Position numbers and translations under genes: made by a program. Below are positions 31,781 through 53,600 of a stretch of DNA of 64,000 nucleotides, piece by piece (within the stretch, counting starts at the first letter, position 1; every line of letters begins with the position of its first letter). The stretch is from Cristatella mucedo (Eukaryota > Bryozoa > Phylactolaemata > Cristatellidae), in assembly GCA_009760855.2 (NCBI GenBank), contig WPIO01000017.1:6066501-6130500 (forward strand), in the 5' to 3' direction. The notes beneath the pieces were generated by a model that made no database searches, was not told the origin of the DNA, and worked only from the letters and a program-made list of their open reading frames with translations.

Positions 31781-31845
<65 letters not shown>

Positions 31846-34800: not shown

Positions 34801-36714
34801 CCTGGCTGAAATCCACTAGCTGCCCGACCAAAACCGACGCCACCCCTACGAACTTCTCAATCTTTCCTACCTCGAGGTTTTTTAATTTGGGATAGCAGAG
34901 CAATTGTTGCCTATTCCTTGCTGATTGCTTTCACTATTTGCAGTCACCTCCAAGCACCTCCTTCGAATCTTCTGTACTCAGCTGCTCCGACCGTTGGCTG
35001 CCAGTGGTGGCAGTCATCTAATGCCTCAGAGCCTTCTCCTGCTATGATTTCATTGACTTTGCAAGTTGGTGAATGCAGTGCTGTGATCGTCGTGCTTTCA
35101 AGTTGGTAAATGCAGTGCCGTGATCATCGTGTACACGCAAATATACCAACTTCGTGAGGCTACGGACATGCAACGGTTGCCAAATCGGCTTGTGGTGAAA
35201 GCAGATGAATTCTATTTCTTGCTTCGATTCTCACTTTAGCTATAAATCACATCAACCGAAACTGGCTGCGACATGGTCACTGCATAACTAATGCTTAGAG
35301 TAACATCTGAGGTAGAAAAGCGAATATGTCTGGCTTAGGGAATCTACTGTACAGGCTGGGCAGCTCGAATCATTTGAAAATGTAGTTATTTCATAAGCAG
35401 CTCCTCTTTGTTGATGTCAGCTGCCGAAAATGCGACTGCATACCCCTCAATACAAGACTGATGCTGCTAAGTACTTCTTTGCGCAGGTAAAAACTTAGCT
35501 GATTTAACAACCTCATTTATATATCAGCAGACGAACCTTAGTGGCTATCAACACTGCTTGCAGTGGGCAATAAAGGATCGCCCTCTTCAGGGCTTGAACC
35601 CGCGTCTTGGGTTGTTAAGAACAAGCACCTAACCCCGTTGGCTATCAGGGGTCGGTGGCTAGGGCGAATAACACTTCTTAGTGCACATGAACTGTACGTT
35701 ACTGATTCATTTATAATAATAATTACAATAATAATAGATTTGATAGCATCCTCAGAGAACTAAGTCTCTTTCTGGGCACTTTGCATTTGCTGCAAAGGAA
35801 GCGCGATCGAACGGTAAGTGGTAGCATGCTCAATGGCAACAAGCATCTCAGATCTACTCTCCCACCAGGCCAAGCAGTGTACCACCCGCTTTTCGGAATC
35901 CAACAGTCTACCAATACCTCGTACAAACCTCAAATCCTTTGGAGACCGTGCATTTAGTTCGTATGCTCCCAAAGGCTGGAACTCCCTCCCGACCTGCGTC
36001 AGAACATCCCCTGACTTGACTACATTTAAAAAGAACTTAAAACACACCTATTTAGGACAGCATTTAGTGGGTCCCTGTGATTCGTCCTTCATGTGCTAAT
36101 AATAATGATAATAATAATAATAATGCACTTGATAAAGCGCCCTCAGAGAACTTAATCTCTTTCTAGGCGCTTTACATTTGCTGCAAAGTGAAATGCAATT
36201 GAATGGTAAGTAAAATCATGCTTGAAAAAAAATTATATTGTTAGGAGTGACATGCACAGGGTCAGCATGCAAATGTGGTTAGTGGCAGCATGCACAGTGT
36301 CAGCACGCATAAGCACGTGAAGCTGTGCCCAGGGGTCGTGCTACCTACTATTATTGGCTGATTCAGGCAAAGTCAAGGTCACTTGTAAGTTCACCCAGCA
36401 TCGGCCAATTCTTCTGGATGCACACAACCCTGAAGAGTCACCGACCAGACAGCCAGGTGGTCTTGTAACAGCTGGCCATTAGTCGTTCAACTTAATGTAC
36501 ATCTATATACAGCCGAAGATGCTGCATTCCAGCTCTCAGTCTGCAACTGGCTGTAGATGAAGTCCATCAATCAGTTAACTAGCAGGCTGAGCTGACACAA
36601 GGGATTGTCAGCTTTAGCCCTACCACTCCTAGCTTGGGTGTTAGTTGTCTAATCACATGACTGTCGATTGCTGGCTGACTCTCTTCTCTCCCTTTTTCCT
36701 GGCTGGGCAGGCTG

Positions 36715-36756
<42 letters not shown>

Positions 36757-37684
36757 TTCTCATTCGCTTTTCGTCGTTTGGCATTAAATCTTGATTTTAT
36801 TCTGACCACCGACCTTAAGACTTACCACTTACATTCATCCCAGCAGGCCATAGTATTGCCAGCCGGGAAAAAAATATTTGGGAGGGACAGAATCGCAGCC
36901 GACAGCTAAACGTGGGGCCGTGTTTGTTCGTGCGCCCGCAGGGACCCAGCACGATCGCTCACGTCCCTGCTCTTCCCTCCCTGATGCTGGATGCTGAGCC
37001 TTTGGCTAGCCCCTAATCGCATCTGTTCAGTTTCAACCTGCATGCCAGTTGGACCTGGCATCCTTACAGGGTTTGCCACTGTCCTACTAATGGTATGCCC
37101 ACCCTAGAATAAAAGGTATCATGATTCAAAACGCTTCGAGTATCATTCAAATGCATTGGTCGGTGATAATAGACTAGCTAAGGTTTTTTTTTGCAGGTAG
37201 CCTTGCTTGTTTTCAATCTGGAACGTACTTGAACGTGCACCGATTGTGTTCTTTTGTATTTTCTGTACTCGTGCAGGATCTTGTTAACGCGTTTGCTAGC
37301 CGGTGCTGCATGCTTCCACGTGCGAGAAAGTCGCACGATTTCCGTGCGATCTCAATTCTTTCGCACAGGTTATCATTCAAGGCCGCTTGCTGCCAAAGAC
37401 AAGTGGCTCAGGGCCGCAGAGAAGCATTTTCATCACTGACAACTCATACCAGGGCACTGCTGGTGGCAGCATGACCGACATTGAGATATGCTCCGTGGAG
37501 CAGCTCGCCTTGGCACACTACCTTCAATGTGGTTACAATGAAGGTATTCGGCATTGCTGTGTAAGACAGTGGAGGGGAGGGGCATTGGATACCATTCCTC
37601 TCGACCCATTGCGCAGCACCTTGCTAGCTCAAACTTTTTCTCTGGGCCCATCCATAGCCAGTGGTTTGCCCCTCGCCCCGTGGC

Positions 37685-37720
<36 letters not shown>

Positions 37721-38451
37721 TACTTGATAAAGCGCCCTCAGAGAACTTAATCTCTCTCTCTAGGCGCTTTACATTGGCTGCAAAGGGAAATGCAATTAAA
37801 TGGTAAGAAAAAATCATGCTTGAAAAACAAACAAAATGAATAGCATGGTTAGGGGTGACATGCACAGGGTCAGCATGCAAATGTGGTTAGTGGCAGCATG
37901 CACAGTGTCAGCAAGCATAAGCACGTGAAGGACGAATCACAGGGACCCGCTAAATGCTGTCCTAAATAGGTGTGTTTTTAAGTTCCTTTTAAATGTGGTC
38001 AGGTCAGGGGATGTTCTGACGCAGGTCGGGAGGGAGTTCCAGGCTTTGGGAGCATTGGCTTGGGCCACAGACGTTCCTCTGTGGCTTGGGCCTTACCTCC
38101 CCCCCCCCATGGCTTGCCCCCTGTAGCTTGGGCCAGGCTGCTTGCTCTCTCATGTCACGAAGTCCGTGTCCATGTTGTAAGCCGTTCCTCCATTGACCAT
38201 AGCTGGCTCTCTGCTTATCTTTTTTGTCAGACCTGCCAGCCGTTGCCGGACTGCTCAGCCTCGCCTGCAAGTAGGTTTGTGCAGGGCAGCAGTTTTGCTT
38301 GCTTTCCCACAGCATTCATCATCCGATGAGAAGGCAGTGCAGCCTTTGGCTGTTAACTTGCCTACCGACGCGCTGCGGCTGGGCTGCTTGCTGCACGTTC
38401 AGCCGGCTCTCTCTCTCTCTGTCTCTCTCTCTCTGTCTCTCTCTCTGTCTC

Positions 38452-38523
<72 letters not shown>

Positions 38524-41116
38524 TCTCTCCCTCTCCTCTCTCTCTCTTCTCTTCCTCTTGCTGAGAAATCGTGTGCCCTTTCTGAAGGTCGGAAGAGAGA
38601 CCTGTTCTCAGCCTCTTGCAGTTCCGGACTTGGGCAATTCAATATATGAGCCTGGTTTGATTGATTTTTAATGACTGGCGCCATCAGGCATTTGTCTCAC
38701 CCATGTGCTGTCTCGTGACTGTCTGGCGCGTGTGGTCATACCTTGACCAATGGGGTAGGAGGATTCGCCCTGTAGGTCTCGACCTTGCATTGCATGTGAA
38801 CGTTGCATGCATCCCACATGTTGTACGAGAGGGTTGCTTTGTAAACTGTAAAATTGGTAATGTTATGAAGGCATTTACATAGGGAGAGAGAGAGAGAAAG
38901 AGAGAATGTCTTTTTATGCATAAATGAGCAGACAGGCAGTTCGTTGCTGTTATTCGTGGTGCGGTGGCTTAATGCCTAAGTTAGCAGACAGGGATGTATT
39001 TCTGACTGATCCAGGAATGATTATGGAGGCTAGCATGCATATAGTTGGTGCTTGGCTTCTTGAATGTTGCCGGAGGAAACCGATGAGGTCTTCTGTGGAA
39101 GGGTTGGGTTCCAGAGCCCCTTTTGCAGTTGGTGGCATTTGATTTGAGCATTGTATTGTGTCTCCCTGACCCCCTGCTGTTACTGCCTAGGTCAGTTGAA
39201 GAACAGGAGGCCATCACTATTTGGCAGTCAGCCAGATTCATTCTCGGCTACCTAGGCAAAGCTATTTTGTCTCATGCTGCTGTGCATCTTGATCAGTTCA
39301 GATTTTATCTCGTGGGAGATGGCTGCTGTCTCTGTTGCTATTCCTTAGTCTCAGTGAAGCATTAAGTCGTTGTAACCAGTGTAGGCTGCTAATCGCTACT
39401 GCATGGTCTCTGGGGAGGAGGAGGAGGGTGTGAATCACTGGTCTTTTGAAACCTATCTGCCCACGTGTCTCGAATTGTTGATGTTCAAAGATCAGGTTTT
39501 TTCTTGGAACCCGAGAGTTGCTGTGAAAACGATCTCAGAAGATTGAGGCTTGGATTCAGTCTTGTACTCTGTGCCAGCTGCCCTTTCACTCTTTTAAAGT
39601 ACTTTCAGCTGTGGGCCAGTCGACTTTTTGCTGCCAAGGGGCTGTATTTTGGCTGCACTCCTTTTGCTTTGTGTCGTCATTTGTGGATGACTACTACTGA
39701 CAAATCAAACTCAGGAGGTTTCCGAAGGGGCATAATATCGACCTTGGCCGACCGTTTCAGGGTCAGTGAAAAGGAGCACTCGGCTCTAGGGCCCTCGGTA
39801 AGCCTTTGCTGTCGGTAGTTGTCATCGAGTAGGTTGCATCCTCATCGAGCAGGTTGCGTCGAGCTTTTCGGCGATAACAATACAGGCTAGTGAGTAGCAT
39901 TTTGGGCACCGGCCTCTTCGAGACCTCAAGTTCTCCGTGCACGATTAATCAGCTGTTCCATTCTTTTGGTCATAGTATGTTGGAACCAGAAGCTTTTGCC
40001 CTGAGAGTCCTAGGCTGTGGAACTCACTTCATCATCTCATTTTATCCCCGAGGGTCCTAGACTGTGGAACCCACTTCATCATCTCATTTAATTGTCGTCT
40101 CTCTCTTTCTCTTGATTACCACTTCATACGTATTAGTTCCTTCATGTTGCTATTACTGGACCTAGTACTCTTATGTATGCAATCCGTCTTGCGGTTTCCT
40201 TGAAAGCCAGAATTAATCGTTAGCTGTAGACACTGTCCCTTTGGCTCCTTGAGTTCTTTGGCTAGTGACATGCCCGTGTTCTGAGGATGAACTCGTAAGA
40301 ACAAATAGTGAGCAGCCTTGCAATGCAATCGAACATGGCCGCATTTCACGTACACAAGCTGCGAGTTTTTTGTAAGGATGCCCCATTATAAATCGGTGGC
40401 CTAGTGGCTGGCTGCATTGGTGGGTCACTCTTCAGGATACCATCTCTTGCTCATACAGCTTTGAGGATACTGTAGGTCAGTCTGTGTGCTGTCATGTAAT
40501 CAGTGGTCAAATCATTCTGCTAGGGGATTCGAACCTTGAACTTAAGAGTTTGAAGTCCGAGTCAGCAGGCCACTTAAAGTAACTGAAGGTGTGAAGCTCA
40601 CTGCACAGCTGCCTCCTCTGCTGTCTGTTGATCACTTCCGTCGGCTGCTGTTAGGTATGGCAGGCTGCTTACTACTTATGTTGGCACACTTGTATTGGTG
40701 CAGCTTCATGACGACAGCACAGAAGGGTGAAGTATAAATGTCAGATTAACCGCCGTCAAGTCGCTTAGCCTCTTGTGCTTGATTTCGTGCAGTATTTAGG
40801 TTAGTGTACGAGATAGTGGATTCGTGCCAAGACCAAGAGACTGCAGACAGCTAGCAGCAGCCGGCTGCTTAGCCTGCTGCGTGCTCGTGTGGAATCAGTT
40901 TGTGGAATCAGACTCCAGAGCTGCAGGTCACCTGCAACATCAGAAAAATATACAGCATGTGTACTGTAGCTGTCACTTGCTGGCCTCCACCCTAGCTCGG
41001 CTTTTCCTGCGAATCCGTGAGTCATGGTAGAGAATATGAAGGCGAGTTGGGTCGCTGTGGTACCAAGAACTGAACAGAGCCTCAGCCTTGCCCCGAGCCA
41101 AGATGGCTGAGAAAGG

Positions 41117-41172
<56 letters not shown>

Positions 41173-44100
41173 GAGAGAGGAAGAGAGAGAGAGGAAGAGA
41201 GAGAGAGAGAGGTAGAGAGCCCGCCTGCAGGCATAGGGGAGGCTAGGATTTTGAGGGCACAAGGAACAGGCCTCCCTGCGCCCCTGGCCCAAATGTCCCT
41301 CATGTCAACCTCTCTTAAGATTGGGTGGAAGGAGTGCGTTGGAAGAACTCGTTGTGCTAGCAAAGCCAGCGTAAACCCGGTGAGACCGACCGGCAATATA
41401 GCGTACACAGCAGCATATAAGATTGTGGGATATTGCGATCGGTCTGTTGGCTTTGAACCCCACGGGCTGCTTGAGACTGTGCACAACGTGCGTGCCGGAT
41501 AGCAGTCGAAGCAAGTGGTTTTGTTGGCTAGCCGAGCGTAGAGCACGGCAGCGTATCGGTGGCCGAGTATCGTTGGCTCTCAAGCCATTGTTACTCGGGC
41601 AGCAGCCATTAAGGAGCTTCAGCACAAAGAAGCCGATGCCTCCTCCCCCCCCCCTGGCTGTCATAACATTGCATGCATTTGCCTGGTAAATGTGCCGCGG
41701 CCGATGTGTGCCTCAAATGGTACTACAACTTCAAAAGGCACCAGCTCCCTAACCTTGTCGACTACGTCTGCACTTGGTGGTGTTTTTTCGTTTGCTACCA
41801 CAATTTAACCATGGTTTGCTACTTACAGATATTATCTTCTGAGGGTTCTATCGGGGCTGAACCTTGACCTCGAGCTCGCCAATCGTAGAAGGGGTAGCAC
41901 CTCCGTCTGGAAACATCTCGAGGGGCTGAAGCTTAGTTTCATTAGTTTCTACAGCTTACTTTTCCTTAGAAATGTGGCTTCAGCTGTTTCTATTTCCGAT
42001 ACCTTTCAAAAAGCCCAGGTAGCGAGAATGACAAAAGAATGTTGTAAGCCACATTTGCATGGTCCTTTTGTACGTAGACTTTTCTCTTATCATAACTTGC
42101 ATTTAAGGATGCATACTCTGCTGAATTTCAACCTATGTTATTTCTGCTCGCACAACCATTTCAGCTTCTTGCTGCAGTATTGCATGGGAGCATCAGTAGT
42201 GTGACAGAACATGCAGAGAAATTTCTTCTAATGACTCTCCACTCACTGACTAAGAATAATACTAATACTAAATTTGTATAGCTCCCTCAGAGAACTGAAT
42301 CTCTGTCTAGGCACTTAACAGATGCTGTATAAAAAAGCATTACCAAATGACTGGTAATAACATCTGCAAGCAGCAGGCACAGTGTATGCAGGTACATGCA
42401 CACGAAGGACAAGTCATAAAGACCCACCAAATGATGTAATAATAAAAAGGCGAGTTTTAAGCTTCAGTTTAAGTGTTGTTATGTCATTCGACGTTGTGGC
42501 GATAGTGAGTTCCGGGCGTTGGGGGCATAGGAACTAATGGCACGGTCTCCAATGGTTCTGACTAGTGCTGAAGCGAGTTTGCAGGTGCAGAAATGTTGTT
42601 AGACCACCGGGTATGTATACAACGGTGATAGGAATTTGAGTAAGCTAATGTAGTGTAATGTAATGTTTCTCTGTCTGCGACTCCTCAGCTACTACAGCTA
42701 CTAAGTGGGTGTCAGGCAGGCCGAGTTTCCATCTCGTACTCAAAGTCGAAGCATCGTATTCGGTATGCATTCGATAGCCAACGGACTTCATCTCACCCAG
42801 CAAAGGGAGAAGCAGTAGCTGATTCAGGAGGGCAGTCGATGAATCGTTAGCAGCATAAGTAGCAGCATTGAAATAGAGCAGCTAATTTGTTGACCATGGT
42901 GGACACGAGGATGCTTAAACAGATGCAGCAGTTCAGCTAGGTATGAAGAAGCCTGGCCACGGCGGATTTTGTGGGTGTGGAATGGGAATTTTGCTCTGCG
43001 ACCGTTGATCACTGGTAGTCTGCAGGAATCACATTATCTGTAGTGCAGTCATTACTGGACTGCAGCCATTTTGTTTCGAAGGGCCGTGGCCATCCTTTGA
43101 TACACACGTAAAAGCAAACAATAAGATATACAGGTCTACCGGTTTGTCGGACCTCAGGCCAGTAAAATGCACTGAATCATGCACGGGCAAGCATGCCAAG
43201 AACGAGGGAATCAAAAAAAGACAATTTGCTGGGGTCAGGGTTAGGCCGACCGACCAGAGTAGATAGTCTTGAGCGTAAACTTGAAGTGTGCAAGACCCAC
43301 CAAACAGGCTTTTATTTAGCTCTCGTTGCAGGTAGTACGCATAGGTGAAAGTGAGTTGTAGACTTTTGGTGCTTACGAGCTGAAGGCTCGATCACCAAAA
43401 TATTTCAATTTAGTGCAAGGGACGCCGAAATGGCTAGATACTGAAGAGCGTGTAGTGAGCAAGCACACTGCTAGCACGGTAGCATACCTCTAGATAGCCG
43501 GTGAATTTTTTGCAGCTATTGAATGAAATTTTTGTTAGTGCCGTGAACAATGTCGACATTTGCACTCCATAAGTATGTGACCATGTTGAATCGTGCACTC
43601 TGGTGTGGAATCTGGCTGAGTTCGCGTATTTTCCATATGGGTGACGACTTAATTTTTTTGCCGGCTTTTAGAATTGCTTTCAAAACACATTTTAGCCACT
43701 TTTTGCTCTCCAACCCCTCTCAGTCGTAATTAGGTGCAATTAAACTAGAGCACCTAGGGCTGCTACTATCACTTGATAACTGCCGACAGACCCTGTTAAA
43801 CATCATCTGGTACTCCGACTACCAGATGCATGGTAGCCCAGCATGTCCATTTTAAACATCTCTAAATTACTATTAGCCCGAAACTCCATCAAGAGAAAGC
43901 TAGTGTCTGCAGCCATACCAATGGCTAATATACTGCCAAGTTTTGTCACATTTTTAGCATCTCTGATGAATGTTAACTGAATTTCACCTTGCAATTCCCT
44001 CGACAATTTTGGGCAAATTATTGAGTTTTTGCACAGATTTTGTCCTTTTTGCACACATTCTGGCTATTTTCTGAAGATGCAGCAAAGCCCTAGTTATCGA

Positions 44101-47100
44101 GACAGTCTGCCCACTGTTCGATGCCCGGCGTGGCTCATTACGTTTTGCCAACTCACTATCCAATCAAAACTTTACACTTTACTCAGTCCTATGCAGCATA
44201 AGTAAAGTGCTTAGAAAGAGCTTCAGTTCCCTTTGGGCACTGTAAACGTATCTTATTATTATTACATTTTAGAAATAGATGATGTTCCGTGGGTTGTAAT
44301 GAGAAGACCTTACGAATACCTTACTCATGCTAGCAGTGAATAATAAACATCACACCTGCTAACTTATTCGATCTCGGGTTGCAGTCAACTTTCAAAATCG
44401 TTCAATCGTGAGGTTTGGCTTGTCGGTTGCACTCAGAAATCTGTCGTCGTACTGCCGTGCCACCTCCCACCACCACTACCGTGGTGATCTCCTGGGAGAG
44501 TTAACTAGGAAGTAGGCCTACATGAAACTCGCATTACGATGCTCGGTCTCTGACCTACAACTGCTAACGACTGCTATATGAAGAACAATTGCTGGGTTCA
44601 GTAGAGATATAAGTCATAGCACTTGAGCCCTTTTCTTTGGCAATGCTTCTTCGAAGCCGAGAGTTCCAGTGTAGTTTCGTCGTAGAATTTGCAAAACATT
44701 CATCAGAGATGCTAAAAATGTGACAAAACTTGGCAGTATATTAGCCATTGGTATGGCTGCAGACACTAGCTTTCTCTTGATGGAGTTTCGGGCTAATAGT
44801 AATTTAGAGATGTTTAAAATGGACATGCTGGGCTACCATGCATCTGGTAGTCGGAGTACCAGATGATGTTTAACAGGGTCTGTCGGCAGTTATCAAGTGA
44901 TAGTAGCAGCCCTAGGTGCTCTAGTTTAATTGCACCTAATTACGACTGAGAGGGGTTGGAGAGCAAAAAGTGGCTAAAATGTGTTTTGAAAGAAATTCTA
45001 AAAGCCGGCAAAAAAATTAAGTCGTCACCCATATGGAAAATATGCACACTCAGCCAGATTCCACAAAAAGTGAGTATTTTCTGCAAGAGAGGAATGATTT
45101 GCCTGATTCTGTCAATTACCGGTCAAACTACTTGATCTATCAAACAGTGGCCGAGCGTGCTATTGATGTCTGCTGATGGAGACCAGCCGGGTTGATAGTT
45201 TTGCAGGCCATACAGAGATTTGGAGGTGAGTGATACATTTCCAACAGCTAACGTGCCAGTATCAAACCACTCTCCCGAAAAGTGGCAAAGCTCTGTCTGC
45301 TTTAACTGACATCTTTCTGGTGCTGCAGTTTCTAAACAAGGTAACAAAGACTTGGAGTACCAGTATAAGCTAGGCTGTGATGTCACCAAAACAGTCTTTT
45401 TAACAGGTCAGTACAAGGCAAACCACATCACAGGGCAGAGGGAGACAGGGTTTGTATATAAACGACTCAACGAGTTGCTACCAACACGAGCACTAACTTT
45501 AGCGTATAGCTCTGCAACATGCATTGACATGCCCTGCAAACAAGCAAGGAGAGGCTATGACACCGCGACTCCACATAATCTCATGGAAGTAACTTAAAAA
45601 CAACGAATCACAAGCACAGCAGGCGATTGTTGTATCTCGATGGAATCTGGAAGCTAAACAGGGACAAAGTACGACAGGGTATGTCCGACTTTTTAATTGG
45701 CTCGAATTATGGCTACCCTTTTCGCCCACGCTAGCTGCTGCTGCTGAGTGCTGCGGCGGAGGTTCTGATTACCATTTTGTGGTATAGTTTTAGTTTTTTC
45801 ACTCTACTGTCATCTACGTCTCCCGATCGTCGTGCATCGTCAGAGTTCGCTTCTTCCATTAGATGTTGACATGTAAGCCCTTGAAGCCTAGCTCAATATG
45901 GCCACGACCTAAACAGTACCGTACGGTACGTGTTCGTCTTTTTCTCACTGTCTTTCTTGGTATAAAAGTTGTTGATGGTTGTTCTTGGGTGGGTCAGACG
46001 TGGTAGTGGCTGATCAGGCAGCAGCAGTGGCCACTGCTGCTGCTGCCGGCTCAGAGCTCAGTATCCATGCTGCAGGAGCAGTAGGAACGCTTGAAGCCTG
46101 CCGCACAAGCACTTGTGACCTCTGCTCTTGGCAGTCTTGGCTGCCTCTGCCAACAGTAGCCCCTTCCCTGCCACCCCCTCCCCCTCAGGGGCCCCAGTGC
46201 CCCAGTGCCTACCCTTACCACCCGGTGGTATCGACTTAGCTGGCCAGAGGGCGATCTGCATTCTAAGGTAGTTTGATGTCGAGTTCGGGCACGAGCCGTT
46301 CTACATTCCAAGCTCCTGGAAATGTAGCCAGCAGCTGCCACATAATGTCTTGGCCAGGTCGTAGGCCTATAGTGTGTCTATGCAGGACTAGTTAGGAGAG
46401 TCTGCTTCAAACGTGGCAGTGGCCTCTGTTAGTAAGTGCAAGCCTCCTTTCTGAAAAGCAAATCCACAGTGTACCAAGCAGAATGCATTCAATCGCTTTG
46501 GCAGCATTAAAAGAAATGCAGTCACTACTAGTTGCTTTCAGAAGGTGCTGCCTCCATCTGGAAATGGTTCTTGCATGCTTAAAATAGTGGAGACTTTTAA
46601 TGCTCAGTGTCATTTAGCCTTGCCAAAGCCATTAATGGTTTTTCTGGGTATATCTGGCAACGTGGCCAGAAATTTGTTAAATGGGTGGGTTGAACAGACA
46701 TTGCTTGGGCCCACTAATTGTAGGTACAGGTAAAAGATTGCCTGCTCCTGCTCCGGGCTTGCCCCCTCTCCCACGAATCCTGGCAGAAGGAGCCAGAGAG
46801 TTTGCTCCCCGTGTCCCCTAGTTACGTCGTTGGGTGTACCCGAGGCCACATCCCTCCAGCATGGTTGGCTGCATAAATTCGAATAAGACTTGGAGGTTAG
46901 AGCTCACAGGGATCCTCTTGCCAGCTGATGAGCCAGATCACTCTGCACCTCCTCCTCTGCTGCTGCCCCCCCTCCCGAAGGACACTCACCCCCTCCCTAA
47001 CAGCAGCTGCAGGACAGCATTGATCAGTGGTGGTGGGTGGTGTCTCAGCCCGTGACGACGCACGTGGGACACTAGCCGCTCATCCTAGCCATTCCTTTCC

Positions 47101-48071
47101 ATCGCCACAGACTGCTGCCGTGCGACGTTGCCACCCCTCGCTTGCTTGCTGCCCCCCCCCGTCAGGATCTGGGGGGGGGGCAGCCGCCGGCCCGCTGGTC
47201 GCATTTTTGTGCTGCCTCCACGAGCAAACGCCGCTCACTCTCCCTACACAGGCGTTCATGGGGAAAGCTCGACTTTCACCACGATTTTCGGGTTGCTCTT
47301 CTGGGACATCATATTCATGAACGGCATCAACGACACATTCCACAGCCCGTATCAGAGCCAGCCGACCGACTTTCAGACGGACTGCTTCTACTCGAGCCGC
47401 GAGCAGGCCATCGAGGCTCGGCTAACAGCGCTTCGGACGAGCTCGAGCGAGGTGTGCGCGCAGCAGCCAGCTTGCAGTGCCCCCTGCCGTCCGGTGGCGC
47501 CACACGTCCGTGCTGCGTTGGCGTTGATGCTGCGTTGGCGCAGCATCCTAATCCATCCCCCAGTGTTGGCTCACGTGCAGGAACTGGCTGAGGTTGCTGC
47601 AGAAGCGTGGCATTCGCATAAGAACGAACGGTGTGCACCTGTCGTCTGGGATCGCTTTGACAGTGACGAGCATCTTAAGGTAGGTCAACGCTCTCTCCAA
47701 TGCCTCTTGCCAGGTCGTGGGACATGCCCACACTCCAGGCTGACTCGCGAACGGCACCGTTGTGTCACCTGTGCTAGGTTCGTGTGGCGCAATCTCCTTC
47801 TGCTCTTGACTCCATACAGCTGCCAAACTAAGATTGGATGCAGGCTAGCACGTTTTCTGTGGCTTTCTCAAAGCCTGTGAGGCTTCCAGTCGATTGCCGA
47901 TGGCGATTCGCAGAATGAGCCAGAAGCAAGCGGCATGAGCATACATGGACATCGGTCGAGCAAGTGCCTGGTGATGGTAGCTCTGCAGGAGTGCTAGGTG
48001 CTACGTCACCGAAGAGGTAGTGGGGTTCCTGCTTGTACCAGTAGGGTGAGCATGGCTCAGCAGTGTGAGCT

Positions 48072-48155
<84 letters not shown>

Positions 48156-50131
48156 GCAGTCTGCCCGGGCACTTGCACACTCTAGCTGCCCAATCGTCGG
48201 ATTGCTTACGTGTGAAAATTGCAATCAGCAGTAGCAGGATTTGAACCCGAGATCGGTAGTTCCCGACTCCTCAGCCATGTCTTGTAATCGGCATACTTGC
48301 AAACGCCTGCCGATGTGGTACAAGCCTGGCCTACTACACGAGCTTATTAAATGGAACCATTCAAACATAGCACGGACTGCAGATATTCGAGCTGAGAGCT
48401 GCTAGGTGTGGGGAAGGTCAGGGTAGTAAGCGATGGTTGCTGTAGCCTCTGCTCTACGGGGGGGGGGGGCATGCAAGAATAATGGCATTAGCTTGTGTGT
48501 GTGTGTGTGTGTGTGTTCTACAGGTAGTAGCATCTCTGTTGGTACTTTCAATACGTAGCAGATGAAAATGAGCTTTCATTTGACATGATAATGATACAGC
48601 ATTGTTTTTAGCAGAAGAGGCTCTTGGAGAAGCGCTTGCGCTTGTTTAAATTTCCGTAGCTAGATCGAGGCCGATCCAGTCTCGCTAAGGAAGCAATATG
48701 ATTTTATCTTCTCACTGAGCTGCTGCGCCCACAACTAGCTAGACAATTGCCACTCAACTTTGCCATTACATTAAGGGTATGTCCTATCATGCTGTGTAGC
48801 CCACACTGGGCATACGGTGCTGCCATTGATCGGCTCAGCCTCCTCCCTGCCTCCCCCTATCGGCAGCTCATTCCCTGACAAGGTGTTTCACGACCTGATC
48901 ATTTCCATATATTCGGCCGACAATAGTGAATATCCATGCTTCAGATGCGTGTTTTTATTCATTACAGTGCGACTTGGTATCAGAAGCTTGACTATCTGCT
49001 GAGTATTGTGCGGCCAAGTACAAACATTGATTGATTGTGTCAATACTTCCGAACCACACCCACTCGTCACGGGGTGGTGGCTAGAATGACTCTAAAAAGG
49101 GGTCATTAGCTGCTAATCATGTGCAGCACGAACCATGCACCTAGCAGGCTACTATGCATGCAAGTAAAAAGAAAATGAACCAGTAAAACTGAGTAGCTAG
49201 GAGGACTGCAAGTCGAAGCCACACTTAATTTGGCATAGGAAGCTTTCGGCAAGCAATGCTTGTGCTTCTCCTGCGCACTGCTGCTAGAGATTCGGGTGTA
49301 TCGTCTGACAGTCGCCGACCGAAGGCCTCATCACTAGCACAGCACGAGTCTCAGTCCTGCCGCCGAATCTTGCTGCAGGGTCTCATCAGGTGCCTGCCCG
49401 GGAAGCTGCTCGCGGCTATCTGTGAGCGCTACTGCCGCTGGTTTAGGCATTGTCGCAGCGGCATGCCCGATCTGACCGTGTGGAACACCGGCGACCGAAC
49501 GTTCAAGGTGAGTCGGCGTCCCAAGCGTGACTCGCAAGCTCGCCGGATGCCGGGCAACTCCCTCCCTCGGCTGGGGGACGCGTGAGATGGCGTCACGGCT
49601 GGTAGGGGTGTAACAAACAGATCGTCTGCACAGCCACGAACGCCGACCAGACGGTGGGCGTTCGTGGCTGCGCAGACGATCTGTAGACGATGCATGCGTG
49701 CTCGTGCATTTTCGCGTAAGCACGCGGCACATGCTGATGCAGCTGAACGCACTTCGAGGTGCCACACACGTAGGACAGATATCGTTCGTGCAGGTGATCG
49801 AGGTCAAGGGGCCCGGCGATCGGCTGTCCAACAAGCAGATACTGTGGCTCGATTATCTCCACAAGCACGGGGCGGCGGTCGAAGTGTGCTACGTCGAAGG
49901 TCAGTTGCTGGCACTTTCGGCGACGGCAGTGGCAGCGCGTCCGAAGCCCCCCCCCCCCCCCCGCTCTTGGTGCTTTCGGCCACTGTGCCCCTCTGTGCTC
50001 TGCCCAGTTCTGCCAGTCAGGCGTGCCTCATCTCGTGCTGCTTGTTGCTCGTAGGGGTCGGGTCGAAGAGGCTTCGGCTGCCTAAAGAAGGGTCGGCGGC
50101 AGCGGCCGCTGCCCGGCGAAGCGCCACCTGA
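11519..50131 (+). CDS. FAN1: FAN1: FANCD2/FANCI-associated nuclease 1, complete, 14 coding exons
   Basis: FAN1 is a nuclear 5'-flap endonuclease/exonuclease that acts in interstrand-crosslink repair. Fourteen exons join in phase to 2613 nt (870 residues plus stop); human FAN1 has 1017. Order: disordered N-terminus (1-200); FAN1 NTD with SAP helices (201-360; [24 protein letters not shown]); TPR-like helical region (about 400-610; [23 protein letters not shown]); VRR-NUC (about 645-858; [39 protein letters not shown]). Catalytic E672, D798, E813 and K815 match human E834, D960, E975 and K977 with identical spacing. The zinc-binding UBZ finger and the SPYF MLH1-binding motif of the human N-terminus are not seen. 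The start is the only ATG in frame (G at -3 and +4); upstream in-frame codons lack ATG. The gene ends 174 bp from the convergent UBASH3-like stop. Confidence 0.96.
12354..12494 (+). CDS. FAN1: FAN1 exon 2
   Basis: Acceptor TTTCTAG, donor G/GTAAAC, phase 1 to 1. It encodes [16 protein letters not shown] and the following [16 protein letters not shown] helices, which align without gaps to the human NTD. It is separated from exon 1 by only 114 bp. Confidence 0.95.
12981..13147 (+). mobile_element. tRNA-derived SINE copy
   Basis: The box-B-like GCGGGTTCGAGTC (13037) is followed by a body with GGGCAATCCTTCATTGC and GGTGATAACCACTAGGGCTC. The end is ATAAATGAGGGTGTTAAA. The same order occurs near 19.6 kb (+) and, reversed, near 28.7 and 35.6 kb. 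Confidence 0.75.
14146..14210. repeat. AT and CA/TA dinucleotide array
   Basis: An imperfect (TA)n, (CA)n, (TA)n composite within FAN1 intron 2. Confidence 0.95.
17851..17889. repeat. (TG)n microsatellite
   Basis: About 19 uninterrupted TG units in FAN1 intron 2. Confidence 0.98.
18893..19106 (+). CDS. FAN1: FAN1 exon 3 (SAP region)
   Basis: Acceptor ATTCAAG, donor AA/GTGAGT; starts in phase 1 and ends in phase 2. It encodes [19 protein letters not shown] and [13 protein letters not shown], the two helices of the SAP-type DNA-binding element. The loop between them ([10 protein letters not shown]) differs from the human one. Confidence 0.95.
19330..19490 (+). mobile_element. LINE 3' tail fragment
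   Basis: It carries the terminal hairpin-type block (TAAAGTGCATAGAAATAAAA, then a GGGTGCTGAGC arm) followed by TTATTATTATT. It is a diverged relative of the other LINE ends in the window. Confidence 0.55.
19575..19757 (+). mobile_element. tRNA-derived SINE copy
   Basis: The head has box B GTGGGTTCGAATCC (19648). The body is GGGCGATCCTTTATTGCCAC followed by GTGGTGACAGCC. The 3' end is ATATAAAATGAGACTGTTAA. This is one of the best-preserved copies in the window. Confidence 0.8.
20640..22590 (-). mobile_element. LINE family 2 with decayed reverse transcriptase
   Basis: On the minus strand, 22330-21578 encodes RT palm and fingers blocks: [46 protein letters not shown] (motif A) and [11 protein letters not shown] (motif C). 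21577-21218 and 21215-20688 continue through [30 protein letters not shown] and LWNSLP to the 3' end near 20640. Motif B (the PQGS block) is missing: the frame jumps from RRVTS to IYIQPLG, implying an internal deletion. There are stops or frameshifts at 21578 and 21217. Its upstream part (22340-22590) matches 4140-4400 of the copy at 3.8-5.0 kb. Confidence 0.88.
24019..24150 (+). CDS. FAN1: FAN1 exon 4
   Basis: Acceptor TGCTCCAG, donor AT/GTGAGT, phase 2 to 2. It encodes [19 protein letters not shown] and [13 protein letters not shown], aligning with the human segment that ends in ILLLFSL. Confidence 0.95.
24400..24998 (-). mobile_element. LINE family 2, 3' fragment
   Basis: It is colinear with 20640-21210: the same 3' end, the block around TAGCATGGGCGTAGCAGCTC, and the segment AGCTAGGTACGAAGGAGCCA. 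The frame is destroyed by many indels. Confidence 0.8.
25600..25740 (+). mobile_element. LINE 3' tail fragment
   Basis: The block TTGTAAAGCACCTAGATAAT followed by TTAATTCTCTTTGGGCAC and then AATAATAATA resembles the terminal hairpin and tail of the other LINE copies. It is related to the copy near 58.8 kb. Confidence 0.6.
26498..26596 (+). CDS. FAN1: FAN1 exon 5
   Basis: Acceptor TTCTTGTAG, donor CG/GTGAGT, phase 2 to 2. It encodes [20 protein letters not shown] and [13 protein letters not shown], matching the human block LVNLGRMEFPSYTINR and its continuation. Confidence 0.95.
26597..27211 (+). other. FAN1 intron 5 (615 bp)
   Basis: No repeat or internal gene recognised. Confidence 0.6.
27212..27346 (+). 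CDS. FAN1: FAN1 exon 6
   Basis: Acceptor CCTGCTAG, donor GA/GTAAGT, phase 2 to 2. It encodes the helical segment with [18 protein letters not shown], corresponding to the human MANGNWEEAKELAQ repeat region. Confidence 0.93.
27347..27703 (+). other. FAN1 intron 6 (357 bp)
   Basis: GC-rich, with no repeat recognised. Chance open frames run through it. Confidence 0.6.
27704..27932 (+). CDS. FAN1: FAN1 exon 7 (TPR-like region)
   Basis: Acceptor CCTGCACAG, donor CAG/GTGCGC; starts in phase 2 and ends in phase 0. It encodes [29 protein letters not shown] and [16 protein letters not shown]. Residue Y539 stands where human FAN1 has Arg706 of the basic pocket that binds the 5' phosphate; the adjacent W540 is conserved. 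Confidence 0.96.
27933..31098 (+). other. FAN1 intron 7 (3166 bp)
   Basis: Contains a minus-strand SINE (28630-28790) and a weak + LINE tail (about 28960-29035). Nothing else was recognised. Confidence 0.65.
28630..28790 (-). mobile_element. tRNA-derived SINE copy
   Basis: In reverse orientation: box-B-like GTGGGTTCGAATCCTG (28732-28747), then the body with AGTTTATTGCC, and the 3' end ACGAGGCTGTTGAATCAGCC at 28637-28656. Confidence 0.7.
31099..31254 (+). CDS. FAN1: FAN1 exon 8
   Basis: Acceptor CTTTTGCAG, donor GAG/GTGAGC, phase 0 to 0, 52 codons. It encodes [20 protein letters not shown]575 replaces the human pocket residue His742. The region after SLYQRA is shorter and more divergent than in human FAN1. 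Confidence 0.95.
31782..31843. repeat. (CA)n microsatellite
   Basis: About 31 uninterrupted CA units in FAN1 intron 8. Confidence 0.98.
31925..32860 (-). pseudogene. Decayed Tc1-like (IS630/Tc1/mariner) transposase
   Basis: Read on the minus strand from 32860: an N-terminal part with [12 protein letters not shown] and a helix-turn-helix-like segment (frame 32763-32521). This is followed by TDESKFTVY (near 32455-32430), the motif around the second catalytic Asp. Next come [12 protein letters not shown] and [13 protein letters not shown], then [14 protein letters not shown] (near 32155-32110), the region of the third catalytic acid. An ATSY end precedes the 3' flank. In-frame stops and frame changes disrupt it, so it is a fossil. 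The flank at 31925-32040 resembles 54560-54660, beside the second Tc1-like remnant. Confidence 0.85.
33950..34600 (-). mobile_element. LINE family 1, 3' part
   Basis: From the ATT-type tail and hairpin (33965-34015) upstream through CATG-rich 3' UTR units (34030-34165) into the RT C-terminal frame ([16 protein letters not shown], minus, near 34320-34270). Further blocks extend to about 34600 with frameshifts. Confidence 0.8.
35490..35665 (-). mobile_element. tRNA-derived SINE copy, near full length
   Basis: On the minus strand: head with TAGCCAACGGGGTTAGG (box-A position) and GCGGGTTCAAGCCCTG (box B). The body is GGGCGATCCTTTATTGCCC and GTGTTGATAGCCACTAAGG. The 3' end is ATATAAATGAGGTTGTTAAA. 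It serves as the reference copy for the family in this window. Confidence 0.82.
35728..36100. mobile_element. LINE family 1 copy with internal inversion
   Basis: 35728-35838 is the 3' tail with hairpin in minus orientation. 35845-36095 is the C-terminal RT segment in + orientation ([41 protein letters not shown]). The CATG-rich UTR between these parts is missing. The arrangement fits a 5'-inverted insertion with a junction deletion. Confidence 0.65.
36098..36335 (-). mobile_element. LINE family 1, 3' end
   Basis: An AAT tail (36098-36126) is followed by the hairpin (GCGCC pairing with GGCGC arms around AGAGATTAAGTTCTCT on the minus strand). The CATG-rich UTR then runs to about 36335. Confidence 0.8.
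36718..36753. repeat. (TC)n microsatellite
   Basis: About 18 TC units in FAN1 intron 8. Confidence 0.98.
37369..37543 (+). CDS. FAN1: FAN1 exon 9
   Basis: Acceptor TCGCACAG, donor G/GTATTC (weaker than the others); starts in phase 0 and ends in phase 1. It encodes [10 protein letters not shown] and [20 protein letters not shown], matching the human entry into the nuclease domain (SVEELALAHY). The segment after [10 protein letters not shown] is poorly conserved. Confidence 0.94.
37687..38055 (-). mobile_element. LINE family 1, well-preserved 3' end
   Basis: Eleven AAT units (37687-37719) precede a hairpin with perfect GCGCC/GGCGC arms on the minus strand. CATG-rich UTR units follow (37850-37925). 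The start of the coding C-terminus runs to about 38055, where the element stops. Clean tail and hairpin suggest a young insertion. Confidence 0.85.
38407..38556. repeat. (TC)n tract with regular GTCTC interruptions
   Basis: About 150 bp of CT repeats, with G interruptions spaced 8-14 bp apart in the first third. Confidence 0.97.
38880..38906. repeat. Short (GA)n tract
   Basis: GGGAGAGAGAGAGAGAAAGA-type purine tract in intron 9. Confidence 0.9.
40000..40090 (+). repeat. Tandem duplication of about 43-45 bp
   Basis: Two adjacent copies share GAGNGTCCTAG, CTGTGGAAC and CACTTCATCATCTCATTT. The words RVL..LWNSL in one frame suggest the source was a LINE C-terminal segment. Confidence 0.75.
40520..40580 (-). 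mobile_element. tRNA-like SINE head fragment
   Basis: On the minus strand, AAGTGGCCTGCTGACTC resembles box A and CAAGGTTCGAATCCCC is a good box B about 35 nt downstream. No intact acceptor stem is seen. Confidence 0.45.
41119..41218. repeat. (GA)n tract
   Basis: About 100 bp of GA repeats with GGAA interruptions in the second half. Confidence 0.98.
42260..42575 (-). mobile_element. LINE family 1, diverged 3' end
   Basis: AAT-rich tail (42260-42275), hairpin region (42285-42330) and a shortened CATG UTR. Coding blocks up to about 42575 (VPTTLE and GDRAI-like on minus) are heavily mutated. Confidence 0.7.
42645..43085 (-). mobile_element. LINE family 2, 3' fragment
   Basis: Starts at the family 2 3' end (TAATGTTTCTCTGTCTG on +) and is colinear with 20640-21215, including CAGTTCAGCTAGGTATGAAG. 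An internal part has been deleted. Confidence 0.75.
43225..43440 (-). mobile_element. LINE remnant, third variety
   Basis: In one minus frame the words [18 protein letters not shown] and [12 protein letters not shown] appear, the usual post-RT block, but the DNA is not closely similar to families 1 or 2 here. Confidence 0.5.
43604..45065. repeat. Large inverted repeat: two 371-bp arms around a 720-bp spacer
   Basis: The left arm 43604-43974 and right arm 44695-45065 are reverse complements of equal length with only a few mismatches seen by eye. Examples are one base near 43673 and three near the outer end at about 43621-43628. The spacer (43975-44694) contains a LINE tail (44150-44270) and otherwise unique AT-rich DNA. 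Inside each arm is a 9-bp hairpin (left 43804-43828). No transposase or convincing target duplication is seen. Confidence 0.95.
44150..44270 (+). mobile_element. LINE 3' tail inside the inverted-repeat spacer
   Basis: GTAAAGTGCTTAGAAAGAGC, then a GGGCACTGTAAACG arm and TTATTATTATTAC, match the shared 3' end of the other LINE copies. Confidence 0.65.
47252..47451 (+). CDS. FAN1: FAN1 exon 10 (nuclease core)
   Basis: Acceptor CCTACACAG, donor GAG/GTGTGC; starts in phase 1 and ends in phase 0. It encodes [20 protein letters not shown] and FMNGINDTF, one of the most conserved stretches of the family. It holds the first catalytic Glu (E672). Confidence 0.97.
47452..47580 (+). other. FAN1 intron 10 (129 bp)
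   Basis: Short GC-rich intron with GT-AG ends. Its open frame is continuous with exon 10 but unlike the family. Confidence 0.85.
47581..47679 (+). CDS. FAN1: FAN1 exon 11
   Basis: Acceptor ACGTGCAG, donor AAG/GTAGGT, phase 0 to 0, 33 codons. It encodes [17 protein letters not shown] and [13 protein letters not shown], matching human WVAATWHEQEG and VSWDRF. Confidence 0.96.
48072..48153. repeat. (GA)n tract
   Basis: About 80 bp of GA repeats with one AAAG interruption. Confidence 0.98.
48230..48300 (-). mobile_element. tRNA-like SINE head fragment
   Basis: On the minus strand, ACATGGCTGAGGAGTCGG (box-A-like) is followed by TCGGGTTCAAATCCTGC (box B). No full cloverleaf can be formed. Confidence 0.5.
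49379..49507 (+). CDS. FAN1: FAN1 exon 12 (catalytic Asp)
   Basis: Acceptor CTTGCTGCAG, donor AAG/GTGAGT, phase 0 to 0, 43 codons. It encodes [29 protein letters not shown] and TFK. D798 is the catalytic Asp; R790 matches human Arg952 of the 5'-phosphate pocket. Confidence 0.97.
49508..49793 (+). other. FAN1 intron 12 (286 bp)
   Basis: Short intron dominated by the 28-bp hairpin at 49617-49684. Confidence 0.85.
49617..49684. repeat. 28-bp stem hairpin with a 12-nt loop in FAN1 intron 12
   Basis: Arms 49617-49644 and 49657-49684 are reverse complements with a single mismatch (A14 of the left arm). The loop is GACCAGACGGTG. On the opposite strand the mismatch would be a U-G wobble, making a nearly uninterrupted RNA stem. 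Confidence 0.97.
49794..49899 (+). CDS. FAN1: FAN1 exon 13 (ExK motif)
   Basis: Acceptor TTCGTGCAG, donor G/GTCAGT; starts in phase 0 and ends in phase 1. It encodes [20 protein letters not shown] and [10 protein letters not shown]813 and K815 complete the PD-(D/E)xK site, 15 and 17 residues after D798, exactly as in human. Confidence 0.97.
50055..50131 (+). CDS. FAN1: FAN1 exon 14 (terminal)
   Basis: Acceptor GCTCGTAG, entered in phase 1. It encodes [14 protein letters not shown] and an Ala/Arg-rich tail, stop TGA 50129-50131. VGSK aligns with human VGAK near the C-terminus, supporting this as the true last exon. The 9-residue poly-Ala/Arg end is lineage-specific. Confidence 0.85.
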
Positions 50132-50305
50132 GTGAAGCGCCGGTGGCCGCCACGTGAGGAGCTCGCTGCAGTCCCCAATATCATGCTGCCTCGAGAGGAA
50201 GCTCACGCCGAGAAGGCGCCGAGGCTGAAGCACTGCACGGGTTGAAGGAAGTCAGGGTGCGCGCCGCGGGTGCCATGCGTCGCACCCGCGGACGGATCAA
50301 GCTTG

Positions 50306-50643
50306 CTAGGAAGAGAATATATCCAAATCGAGCGCTTTGTTGTCGCGGTGCGACAAAGCTGGGATGGGCGACTTGTGGAACTGCCACTTGGCCTTCGCCG
50401 GGGCGTGCTCGGAGGCTAGCGATGCGATGCCGTCGGGGTCGTTGTCGCCTCTGCCGTCGTCCTCGACCCTGCCGGCACCGGCCTTGCCGGCACATCCGAA
50501 CAGAACCGTTGCACAGTAGGGCATGCGATTGATGATGTCCAGAAACGACAGCTGATCGCGAGGCTTGCCGTGCATGAGCCTGCGGGTGCACACCTCGGGC
50601 GTGGCGGCGTGCGAGACGAGGAGCACGCAGGGGCTGCCGCCGC
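50306..50643 (-). CDS. UBASH3-like terminal exon
   Basis: Acceptor TTGTTGTAG, entered in phase 1, stop TAG at 50308-50306. It encodes GGSPCVLLVSHAATPEVC, then PRDQLSFLDIINRMPYC, and near the end KWQFHKSPIPALSH. Between MPYCATVLFGC and WQFH lies an extra segment of about 35 residues rich in Gly, Ala, Asp and Glu. It is absent from vertebrate UBASH3, where the two blocks are only a few residues apart. Confidence 0.93.
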
Positions 50644-53600
50644 CTACAACAAGAGGTGCCAAGCAGCGATGTCATTAACAAGATATTGGAAGACGATTAT
50701 TGGCCAGTTGCTGTCTGGCCCCCCCACGGTCCCTATTGATGAGACGTTGCCCAACTTTCATCCCCCCCCCCGACTCGAGTCTACAATTGCTGTGCAGTCT
50801 CTTCATCGGGCTGTCGTTGCTGTCGATTTAATAAAATGCATGATTATAGAGTACTATTGCTATTTGATTCCTCCAAACTATCAGGTGAGCTAACTGCATG
50901 ATGGCAGCATTCATTGTATGCCGAGTGTTGGATCTTTTTTTATTGTAACAACTGGTGATTGATGGATGCCTGATGAATTCCGACTACAAGGTTGCAGGAT
51001 TTGCCAGCTGCTGCTGGTGGACATAATAAGCTGGTCAACGACCAGAATGTATCTACCCAGATAGCAGGTTTGGCAGGCCTGCTTGGTTGCCGAAAAAGCT
51101 CTTACTAGGTAGTCATAGTGTAACTTTTAAGATAACTTGAAGGCTTAAAATGTTGTGAAGGTTTTTCACCAAGGTTTCGAACACCTTTGCAGTTGCCGCG
51201 TTGCTGACTTGTATCAGATTAACTGGGGCTTGACAGTCTCCAGTGTGCTGAAAGGGACAGTGGCCAGTTACTTATCCATACAGTCGCATGATATATGCAA
51301 TCTAGCCACTACGTCTTACTGAAGCACAACCGCAGCAGCTTACAGTCCTGCGCCCGACCAAAGCTTGCGTGCATGCTTTTGGCATGCTTATGAAACAACT
51401 TGCCATCGGATAGACTGCTCAAGCCGCCCTTGTGCGATTCCAAAATGCTCGTGGCCAGTCTGTGACTGCGGTCGTAGTAGGCTTTCAGGCTTTCGGCTGG
51501 GTCTAGCATCGTTTGATAGGAACTGTATCCAAGATCGATATGGTAGCCCTGGTCCCTCAGGTCGGATGGTGTCATGAATACGATGTCGCTCTTATTCCTG
51601 TACCATCCCATCCACTCGAACAGTCCTTTTTCCACCCGAATATCAAGTGGATGAGGCAGTACTGCAATTAAAAATGGCCGGATGCAGTTTTTAACAGCAT
51701 CTTGAGCAGGCGGAAACTAAGATCGACAAGAACATTGACATCAGCCGACAGCATGCTATTTCCAACAGCTGACAGTCCAGAAGAATCAACGCACCTTACC
51801 GTATAAAGCTACGGCCTTGCTCCAGTTGTTTCTATAAAGACTGGGAATGCCCACTCCACCCTTTGTTTTTTTTTTAATATGAAGACCGTGTAAATAATTT
51901 TGCGATAAGTGAGAGTGTCACTGTGTTATGGATTCAGTCGCTACTTGTGCTATAGAGCTGAAGATTTATTTTCAGAATTACTATCACACCTAAACACTAT
52001 GAGCAACAGTCACCGCTCATGCGTTGGATGTGTTGATGGAATAAATTGTGTTCTGAAAGTAATGAGTACATATATCTAGGAAAGCCATGGGGACATGTGT
52101 GCTTCATGATGTGGACGGTAGCAGGTGCAGAGACGTTTTTATCACTGCAATTTGTAAAATACGTCGGCTATAGCTTGATCAAGATGATGCACGGAATCAA
52201 AAGTTGCAACTTCAGCATTGGAATTTTGCTTCCATCAGTCAGAAAGGTTGCATTTCTGCTGAAAGAATTTCTCTATTACACAACGGCCAGGCACTGATGC
52301 ATATAAAATATGTATCTTCGTTTCTGAGTAAGTAAGAGCTATAGCTGTATTACAGAAATGCAAAATACGTTTCTCCAGGTTAATCCAACGCCTCCAGTCA
52401 GAATAATATGTCGGATGTGATAAACTGATATCAACCAGTAAAGCAATATTAAACACCAGCTCAAAACGGCAAGCCCATTGTTGGTATACATGGTTCAGAC
52501 AAATACATAGCGTACACAGCAAATTATGTTTGGGGCTTATTCCAGACATTCGATGCATCCCGATTTACTTTCTTCTTTTGCTTACTTAAAGTGCAGAAAA
52601 TTGGCTGCAAACTACTCCGGCATTTTACACAGGTGCTATCGACCTTATCGCAATTATCTTAGGCCACGTGATAATGTGGACACTGACCCGGACAACTCCT
52701 GATCTCAGGCCATGGCCATCTTGGTTCCATATAGTGTGAGCCTGCGGGGTGTGCCTGCAAGCGTAATGCTCGAGTATTTCAACAGCCAAAAATTACTTAA
52801 TTATCTGCTGTATCACGGTCCCTAATTACGGTTGAGTTAGGAATTTGGGTCCCGTTATTAAGTCTAAAATTATCAAAAAGAAACAATTGCACTGGAAGGT
52901 AGATTAGCTGAAACATAGAAGTACCCGGAATACCTTCAAATTCTGTGAAGAATGGTGGTCATAGCATGTTAGACCAACCGGGATTGATGTATGCAGCAGC
53001 ACTGGTGTGACTCATAAGGCTGAAGATTGGTAGAATAGTAGAGTGGACCCAACACGTTTCTACCTCTAGCCTAATCGGTATTACTTGAGCGGTATAACTC
53101 TCAAAAGAAGCATAATTGGATCGTTAGTATAAAAAAAATAAAGATTGGCTGGTTCAACCCTTAGATTGCAGTAAAAGAGCCACTCTGCTGGCACAGGTCT
53201 CGAATGACCTAGGTAATTAGTTACTAGCACCTTACCCCCTAAGACTGAGGTGGCAACAAATCCCCCAAAAGTGCTCCATGGCAAGCAAGTTGCCATAACA
53301 CCGGAGCTGCTAAGGGAAAATGTTTGCTCGCTCGCTAGCATTTGTAAGAAGTATTTCGGTTGTCTTGACAGGAAGTTGTAATTATGCTTGTGACTGGATT
53401 ATCTAAACAAGAGGTGCCAATGATCGGAACCACCAAAAAGGTGAGACAAGCGGCAAAATTTCACACAACTACCGCCACTTCCATGCTACTCACTACCTCA
53501 ACTGCTCTCCTGACTCTGCTATGCTTCCCACTTTGTCTTTGTTGCTTGAGACGAAGTCTATTGGCAACCGAATACGTACCGACAGCCACTTAGGATGTGT

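Follow-up and report, generated by a model that had tools for sequence, protein, structure and literature searches.

A long inverted repeat in a FAN1 intron of Cristatella mucedo as part of a probable compound templated insertion

We analysed a long inverted repeat in a 64,000-nucleotide stretch of the genome of the bryozoan Cristatella mucedo (assembly GCA_009760855.2, contig WPIO01000017.1, positions 6,066,501 to 6,130,500 of the forward strand; hereafter the window, from whose first letter positions are counted unless a contig is named). The repeat lies in an intron of FAN1, a DNA-repair nuclease gene, and is probably one part of a 2,333-bp compound templated insertion (43604-45936) left by error-prone break repair. 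The best reading of the repair type is template switching or fold-back priming, as in microhomology-mediated break-induced replication (MMBIR) or class 2 templated insertions. The segments of this insertion, their second copies on two other contigs (here C166 and C299) and the breakpoints that they have in common were observed directly. From left to right the insertion consists of an inverted 371-bp piece of C166, 2 bases, 1,685 bp of C166 and 275 bp of C299, and on this interpretation the 371-bp arms of the repeat are a by-product of repair.

The inverted repeat and its second copies

The left arm (43604-43974, minus strand) is an inverted copy of the sequence of the right arm (44695-45065, plus strand). 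The arms are 371 bp each, 98.9% identical after reverse complementation, and enclose a 720-bp spacer (43975-44694, plus strand). The longest exact inverted match in 43000-45600 was 298 bp, compared with 10-20 bp in 50 of 50 first-order Markov shuffles. The four mismatches between the arms (43622/45047, 43623/45046, 43626/45043 and 43676/44993) are laid out as an identical outer 18 bp, then three mismatches in 5 bp, then one in the remaining 348 bp. This confirmed, to the base, a preliminary description of 371-bp arms, different at about four sites, around a 720-bp spacer in a single FAN1 intron. Two of its details need qualification: the exactly equal length of the arms reflects an ungapped alignment, free of indels, and means nothing beyond that, and the limits of 43604..45065 hold for the start and for the arm pair but not on the right, where the insertion reaches 45936.

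We placed the FAN1 exons by a search against solved structures, using three-frame translations of 22050-37042 and 37000-51992 with stops written as X; one of these translations gave no match, and the gene's 5' portion was recovered in part. Matches to human FAN1 were found at 26505-26609 (weak), 27693-27923, 31099-31290 (weak, E 0.02), 37363-37548 (weak alone, i-Evalue 0.27), 47251-47451 (strong), 49373-49513 and about 49776-49898, the last two of which also match the Pfam domain VRR-NUC. The stretches on either side of the repeat align to adjoining residues of human FAN1 chain 4ric (37363-37548 to residues 400-453, 47251-47451 to residues 452-518), and the repeat therefore lies inside a single intron, with FAN1 on the plus strand. 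The limits of this intron, 37549-47250 (plus strand), are approximate, as they come from the protein alignment to human FAN1.

We then compared each part of the repeat with the window's own assembly (572,011,866 bases in 688 contigs), in a search that skips very common words and scores the best candidates only, such that a sequence without a match need not be single-copy. The search for other arm copies that the preliminary description had proposed gave eight places when the left arm was the query (all eight candidates scored). Apart from the two arms themselves, these are a full-length copy on C166 (95%, 361 bp) and five relatives that match only in part (70-78%). With the spacer as query, the one other full copy was again on C166, adjoining the arm copy there, and the 38 further matches listed, among the best 40 of 322 candidates, were tails of long interspersed nuclear elements (LINEs); within the same scope the spacer thus occurs once in the window and once on C166, the LINE tail apart. 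The part of the window to the right of the arm pair, 45066-45661, also had one other copy, on C166 (both of two candidates scored).

These matches belong to one block, block A (43977-45661, plus strand, 1,685 bp), whose other copy is C166:5042112-5043788, on the opposite strand there; the two align in a single run over window 43974-45661 at 97.0%. The C166 copy comprises the spacer, the right arm and a right flank of 596 bp past the arm, and is without the left arm. It thus presents a one-armed state, in which the right arm is internal to the block and in its original orientation. Block B (45662-45936, plus strand, 275 bp) starts one base after the end of the C166 block and has one other copy in the genome, at C299:3222144-3222419 (98%, opposite strand there), both sides of which continue into sequence foreign to this part of the window. 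The only further match of the block B query was a perfect 26-bp palindrome (46018-46043) matching itself, in the intron just beyond the insertion's right end. Between the left arm, which is the first piece of the insertion and has its source in the C166 block, and block A lie two junction bases, 43975-43976, which read AA in the window and AT at the same place on C166, and whose source is not clear. The distant templates would accordingly be C166 for 43974-45661 and, inverted, for 43604-43974, and C299 for 45662-45936. Among the origins considered in the preliminary description, this supports a templated duplication, with a one-armed source on C166 and a further source on C299.

A fold-back element or non-autonomous transposon whose terminal inverted repeats are 371 bp long would account for long, near-identical, terminal-looking arms, and the outer ends of the arm pair do read TG...CA. 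However, the right arm lies in the interior of a longer low-copy block, which is found on C166 too, without the left arm, and the arms are therefore not the ends of an element. No dispersed copies bounded by both inverted termini were found, the sole other full arm copy found being one-armed and continuing into the same right-arm flank; the searches gave one other full copy each of arm and spacer, old relatives extend over the edges of the right arm, and the inverted repeats have no target-site duplication. Such an element, in either form in which it had been proposed, is thus unsupported, and we regard it as extremely improbable. Two opposite insertions of one 371-bp element were also considered and rejected, as there is no duplication around either arm and C166 continues past the arm; the search for duplications around the single arms gave no more than an 8-mer near the right arm, with one mismatch.

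Limits, junctions and direction of copying

Searches that included the flanks turned up near-identical second copies for 43604-45936 only. On the right, 45930-46500 and 46500-47230 matched themselves only in the same genome search. On the left, 42560-43330 and 43230-43603 matched repeats at 69-89%, with no near-identical copy among the best 40 of 3362 and the best 40 of 1090 candidates, respectively, and the matches listed for 43230-43603 all stop short of the 129 bases that adjoin the insertion. The donor side gave a similar picture. The C166 sequence past one end of the block matched itself only, as did the first 205 bases past the other end, the remainder being a common repeat (best 40 of 5831 candidates). 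In about 29 kb around the C166 copy and 9.9 kb around the C299 copy, we found nothing near-identical to the neighbouring segments of the window.

The absence of a target duplication, remarked on in the preliminary description, held at every level: outside the arm pair, around the single arms and around the whole insertion. The 35-bp outer flanks of the arm pair had no exact 6-mer in common, with 0-3 matching bases at adjacent lengths of 2-12. At the limits of the whole insertion (43603/45937) there were again 0-3 matching bases for adjacent lengths 2-12, and about 35 bp on each side had no common 5-, 6- or 7-mer, nor an 8- or 9-mer with one mismatch. The insertion ends read GG/TGTGG and GTTCG/TCTTT (the slash marking the junction), and the sequence of both ends is without a poly(A) tract. 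No bases are shared with the source at the junction of left flank and arm; the junction of left arm and block A has either two unassigned bases or an overlap of about 1 bp, and that of blocks A and B has 1 bp shared. Junction homology of 0-1 bp is also common by chance.

Each of the two internal breakpoints, left arm with A (within 2 bp) and A with B, is common to two segments. Assembly of the insertion piece by piece gives common breakpoints by construction, while a donor role for the window needs coincident exports, and we therefore infer strongly, from the arrangement of the copies, that the window was the recipient. The reverse case, in which the FAN1 intron was the source and exported A to C166 and B to C299, draws on the fact that pairwise identity cannot give copy direction. 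However, it requires that two separate exports coincide at the breakpoint 45661/45662 and that the C166 copy stop within 2 bp of the inner end of the left arm, and neighbouring window pieces in near-identical form were not found in the stretches compared around both copies. We consider this case very unlikely.

An assembly or amplification artefact, a chimeric inverted join, was weighed in the same way. The locus is known from one assembly, and inverted chimeras are known artefacts. However, the arms differ at four sites, two of them specific to each arm when polarised with C166, and the insert differs from its sources by about 2%; because of these differences the segments are not the same reads misplaced, and an artefact is highly improbable. 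The joining of several broken fragments without copying is possible; it would require two fragments of C166.

Original arm, copied arm and number of events

The old relatives of the arm separate the original from the copy. Four of the five (L011, L012, L014 and L015) cross at least one edge of the right arm, with alignments that start in the spacer at 44529, 44631 or 44684 or that extend outward as far as 45087, and L013 lies within the arm; none of the five crosses an edge of the left arm. These alignments are at 60-72% identity and their ends are approximate. As old relatives run past the edges of the right arm and never past those of the left, the left arm is the copy, and the right arm appears to stand in its native context, with C166 agreeing with the old relatives.

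The core of the arm (44750-44920 in the right arm) is a member of an old, dispersed family that includes L011-L015 and contains a 9-bp hairpin at 44841-44865. In six sequences, two of the nine pairs had a both-sided change (in one sequence each) and five of the nine were broken in at least one sequence; the sequences are too few to call this a structured RNA. The spacer carries the tail of an old, truncated LINE (44187-44264, to 44285 in some matches; plus strand), as had been noticed earlier, with 67-79% identity to window copies and 77-84% identity to the 38 other genomic places among the matches listed. At 44198-44265 (minus strand) this tail gave a sub-threshold Rfam match to SNORD64 (27 bits against a gathering threshold of 40), probably by chance. 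It was the one match in the insertion at E values up to 1, and none reached the gathering threshold.

The arms differ from each other at 4/371 positions (1.08%), which supports the recent origin proposed for them. Block A differs from C166 in 34/1672 columns (2.03%), or 27/1312 outside the arm if 7/360 are assumed for the arm within A; the left arm differs from C166 by 7/360 substitutions (1.94%), and block B from C299 at 4/275 positions (1.45%). The arm-arm value, A outside the arm and B are not significantly different (chi-square p 0.41), nor are the arms and the rest (p 0.38; p 0.21 in a rougher count). When polarised with C166, two of the four arm differences fall on the left arm and two on the right, the latter both CpG losses, and C166 differs from both arms in five substitutions and two indels that the arms have in common. 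Arm-to-arm gene conversion, suggested earlier to explain the high identity, is not needed: each arm has two changes of its own relative to C166, and arm-arm divergence is not significantly below that between insert and sources. At an assumed, insect-like substitution rate of 3e-9 per site and generation, the pooled divergence (38/1947) would date the insertion to about 3.3 million generations, as an order-of-magnitude estimate.

These divergences also bear on whether there were two steps, with block A (with or without B) arriving first as a dispersed duplication from C166, and the inverted left arm being added later by local fold-back or template switching. The arm-arm divergence is about half that between block A and C166, and the differences from C166 common to both arms are as such a history predicts. 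However, changes on C166 after a single event would produce those common differences as well, the difference in divergence is not significant, and the inverted copy ends no more than 2 bp from the left end of block A, a coincidence if the steps were independent. On the sequence comparison, one event would be enough for all the divergences, with two events still compatible; taken as a whole, the two-step history is unlikely.

Several observations weigh against a single compound insertion, or against parts of it. Three of the four mismatches between the arms fall into a stretch of 5 bp, which under random placement has a chance of 0.001; CpG losses on the right arm make up two of these clustered mismatches and account for the cluster only partly. 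Of the nine polarised arm substitutions five are on C166 and two on each arm (equal rates, p 0.14), and the lower arm-arm divergence, short of significance as it is, leaves room for a second, later event. The fold-back point is without terminal priming homology (strand end 43975-43977 compared with the sequence ending at 44694), and the two junction bases (43975-43976) lack a clear source. The genome search omitted very common words and scored a limited number of candidates, and both the empty site and the copy direction are inferred from one assembly without an outgroup.

Repair model, parallels and surroundings

A compound insertion of this kind would begin with a double-strand break or collapsed fork in the FAN1 intron. 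A polymerase would use the C299 locus as template for 275 bp and the C166 locus for 1,685 bp; it would also copy 371 bp of the same C166 stretch in the opposite direction before the end was joined across the break. This backward copy may have arisen by the nascent strand folding back on itself, with the 720-bp spacer as the loop, or by a switch to the other strand of the donor. With synthesis from right to left, the order would be C299, then C166, then fold-back on the strand's own product 718-720 nt away, 371 nt of copying, and joining at the left end. From left to right, C166 would be copied backwards first, followed by a strand change on the same donor and then by C299. Both options predict an inverted copy at one end, sharp junctions of 0-2 bp, no target-site duplication and no transposon ends, which fits the insertion. 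The palindromic hexamer TTGCAA occurs in the spacer both at its right end and 14 bases in from the left, possibly by chance.

Parallels to this model have been described. The class 2 templated sequence insertions (TSI; as polymorphisms, TSIP) described for the human genome are patches from a distant locus with no target-site duplication, no poly(A) and junctions of end-joining type, for which RNA-templated patches are favoured (PMC5110952). The FAN1 insertion resembles them in having distant templates in the same genome and neither target-site duplication nor poly(A), and differs from them, as described there, in its chain of two donor loci, one of which is represented by an inverted copy as well. 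Complex chromosomal insertions attributed to fork stalling and template switching (FoSTeS) or MMBIR are chains of templated segments from different loci, some inverted, with blunt junctions or microhomology of at least 1 bp, and the pieces listed include ones of 376 and 815 bp (PMC5120786). Here too segments from different loci are chained and one is inverted, but the cases in that report are large rearrangements in human patients, whereas ours is a 2.3-kb event in an animal intron.

Fold-back inverted duplications leave a non-duplicated spacer that corresponds to the fold-back loop, of 766-70,466 bp in 21 human junctions; the human duplications are large events at chromosome ends, with a dicentric intermediate and with inverted microhomology of 2-8 bp at 13 junctions (PMC3907307, PMC10622511). 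The FAN1 intron shows a comparable inverted copy and non-duplicated 720-bp spacer; unlike the duplications described there, this inverted copy is interstitial, 371 bp long and without terminal priming homology. Break repair in yeast produces, as reported, very short inverted templated insertions by fold-back, mostly of about 5-34 bp (PMC11724301); the inverted templated copy is as in the FAN1 case, and the size differs (371 bp). Together, the first three of these systems account for the features observed in the insertion, a compact compound example that seems to need no new type of mechanism.

Folding of the 1,462-nt strand from arm to arm predicted a structure of -891.8 kcal/mol in which the two arms pair over their whole length. 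According to the folding model, a near-perfect duplex of 371 bp in FAN1 pre-mRNA is thus physically plausible, and any double-stranded RNA formed from FAN1 pre-mRNA would be incidental. The location of the insertion in a DNA-repair nuclease gene is a curiosity and does not argue for a link.

The right end of the C166 block holds an open frame of 115 aa (L036:3120-3464, minus strand), whose window copy (45310-45594, plus strand) is shortened by a stop to 95 aa. Among this frame and six open frames of the insertion, none matched Pfam above the cut-off, and three of the seven had weak matches below it (E 0.026-0.2). Pattern scans gave no matches for a 21-mer in viral contigs or for a 35-position pattern in bacterial and archaeal genomes; seven matches of a 17-mer in viral contigs, with extensions of at most 2 bases, were taken as chance. 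Long GA dinucleotide arrays flank the insertion in the window (41119-41219 and 48072-48153), and GA/CT arrays are found on C166 as well, at a distance of about 290 bp from the block there. Elsewhere in the window lie a reverse-transcriptase fragment of a retroelement (RVT_1 in Pfam, E 2e-15; 21578-22357, minus strand) and what appears to be a pseudogene copy of eukaryotic 18S rRNA, a decayed piece at 56876-57393 (plus strand; 110 bits with Rfam RF01960, model positions 23-604). At the Rfam gathering threshold the window gave no further rRNA match, and ARAGORN found no tRNA.

The insertion in the FAN1 intron, read as a compound templated insertion, would be one germline repair event whose two donors, piece order and inverted step are all legible in an assembly. 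It would provide a route to long, near-perfect inverted repeats without a transposon and without gene conversion. If such events were common, the annotation of young, long inverted repeats would change, and they would be a source of new intronic hairpin RNAs. A wider idea, conceivable but doubtful, is that this genome repeatedly repairs breaks by chaining kilobase-scale copies of unlinked loci with strand switching, giving rise, without a transposon, to near-perfect long inverted repeats and to intronic hairpins that could yield long double-stranded RNA. If that were true, some long inverted repeats in animal genomes now filed as fold-back elements or miniature inverted-repeat transposable elements would be repair scars.

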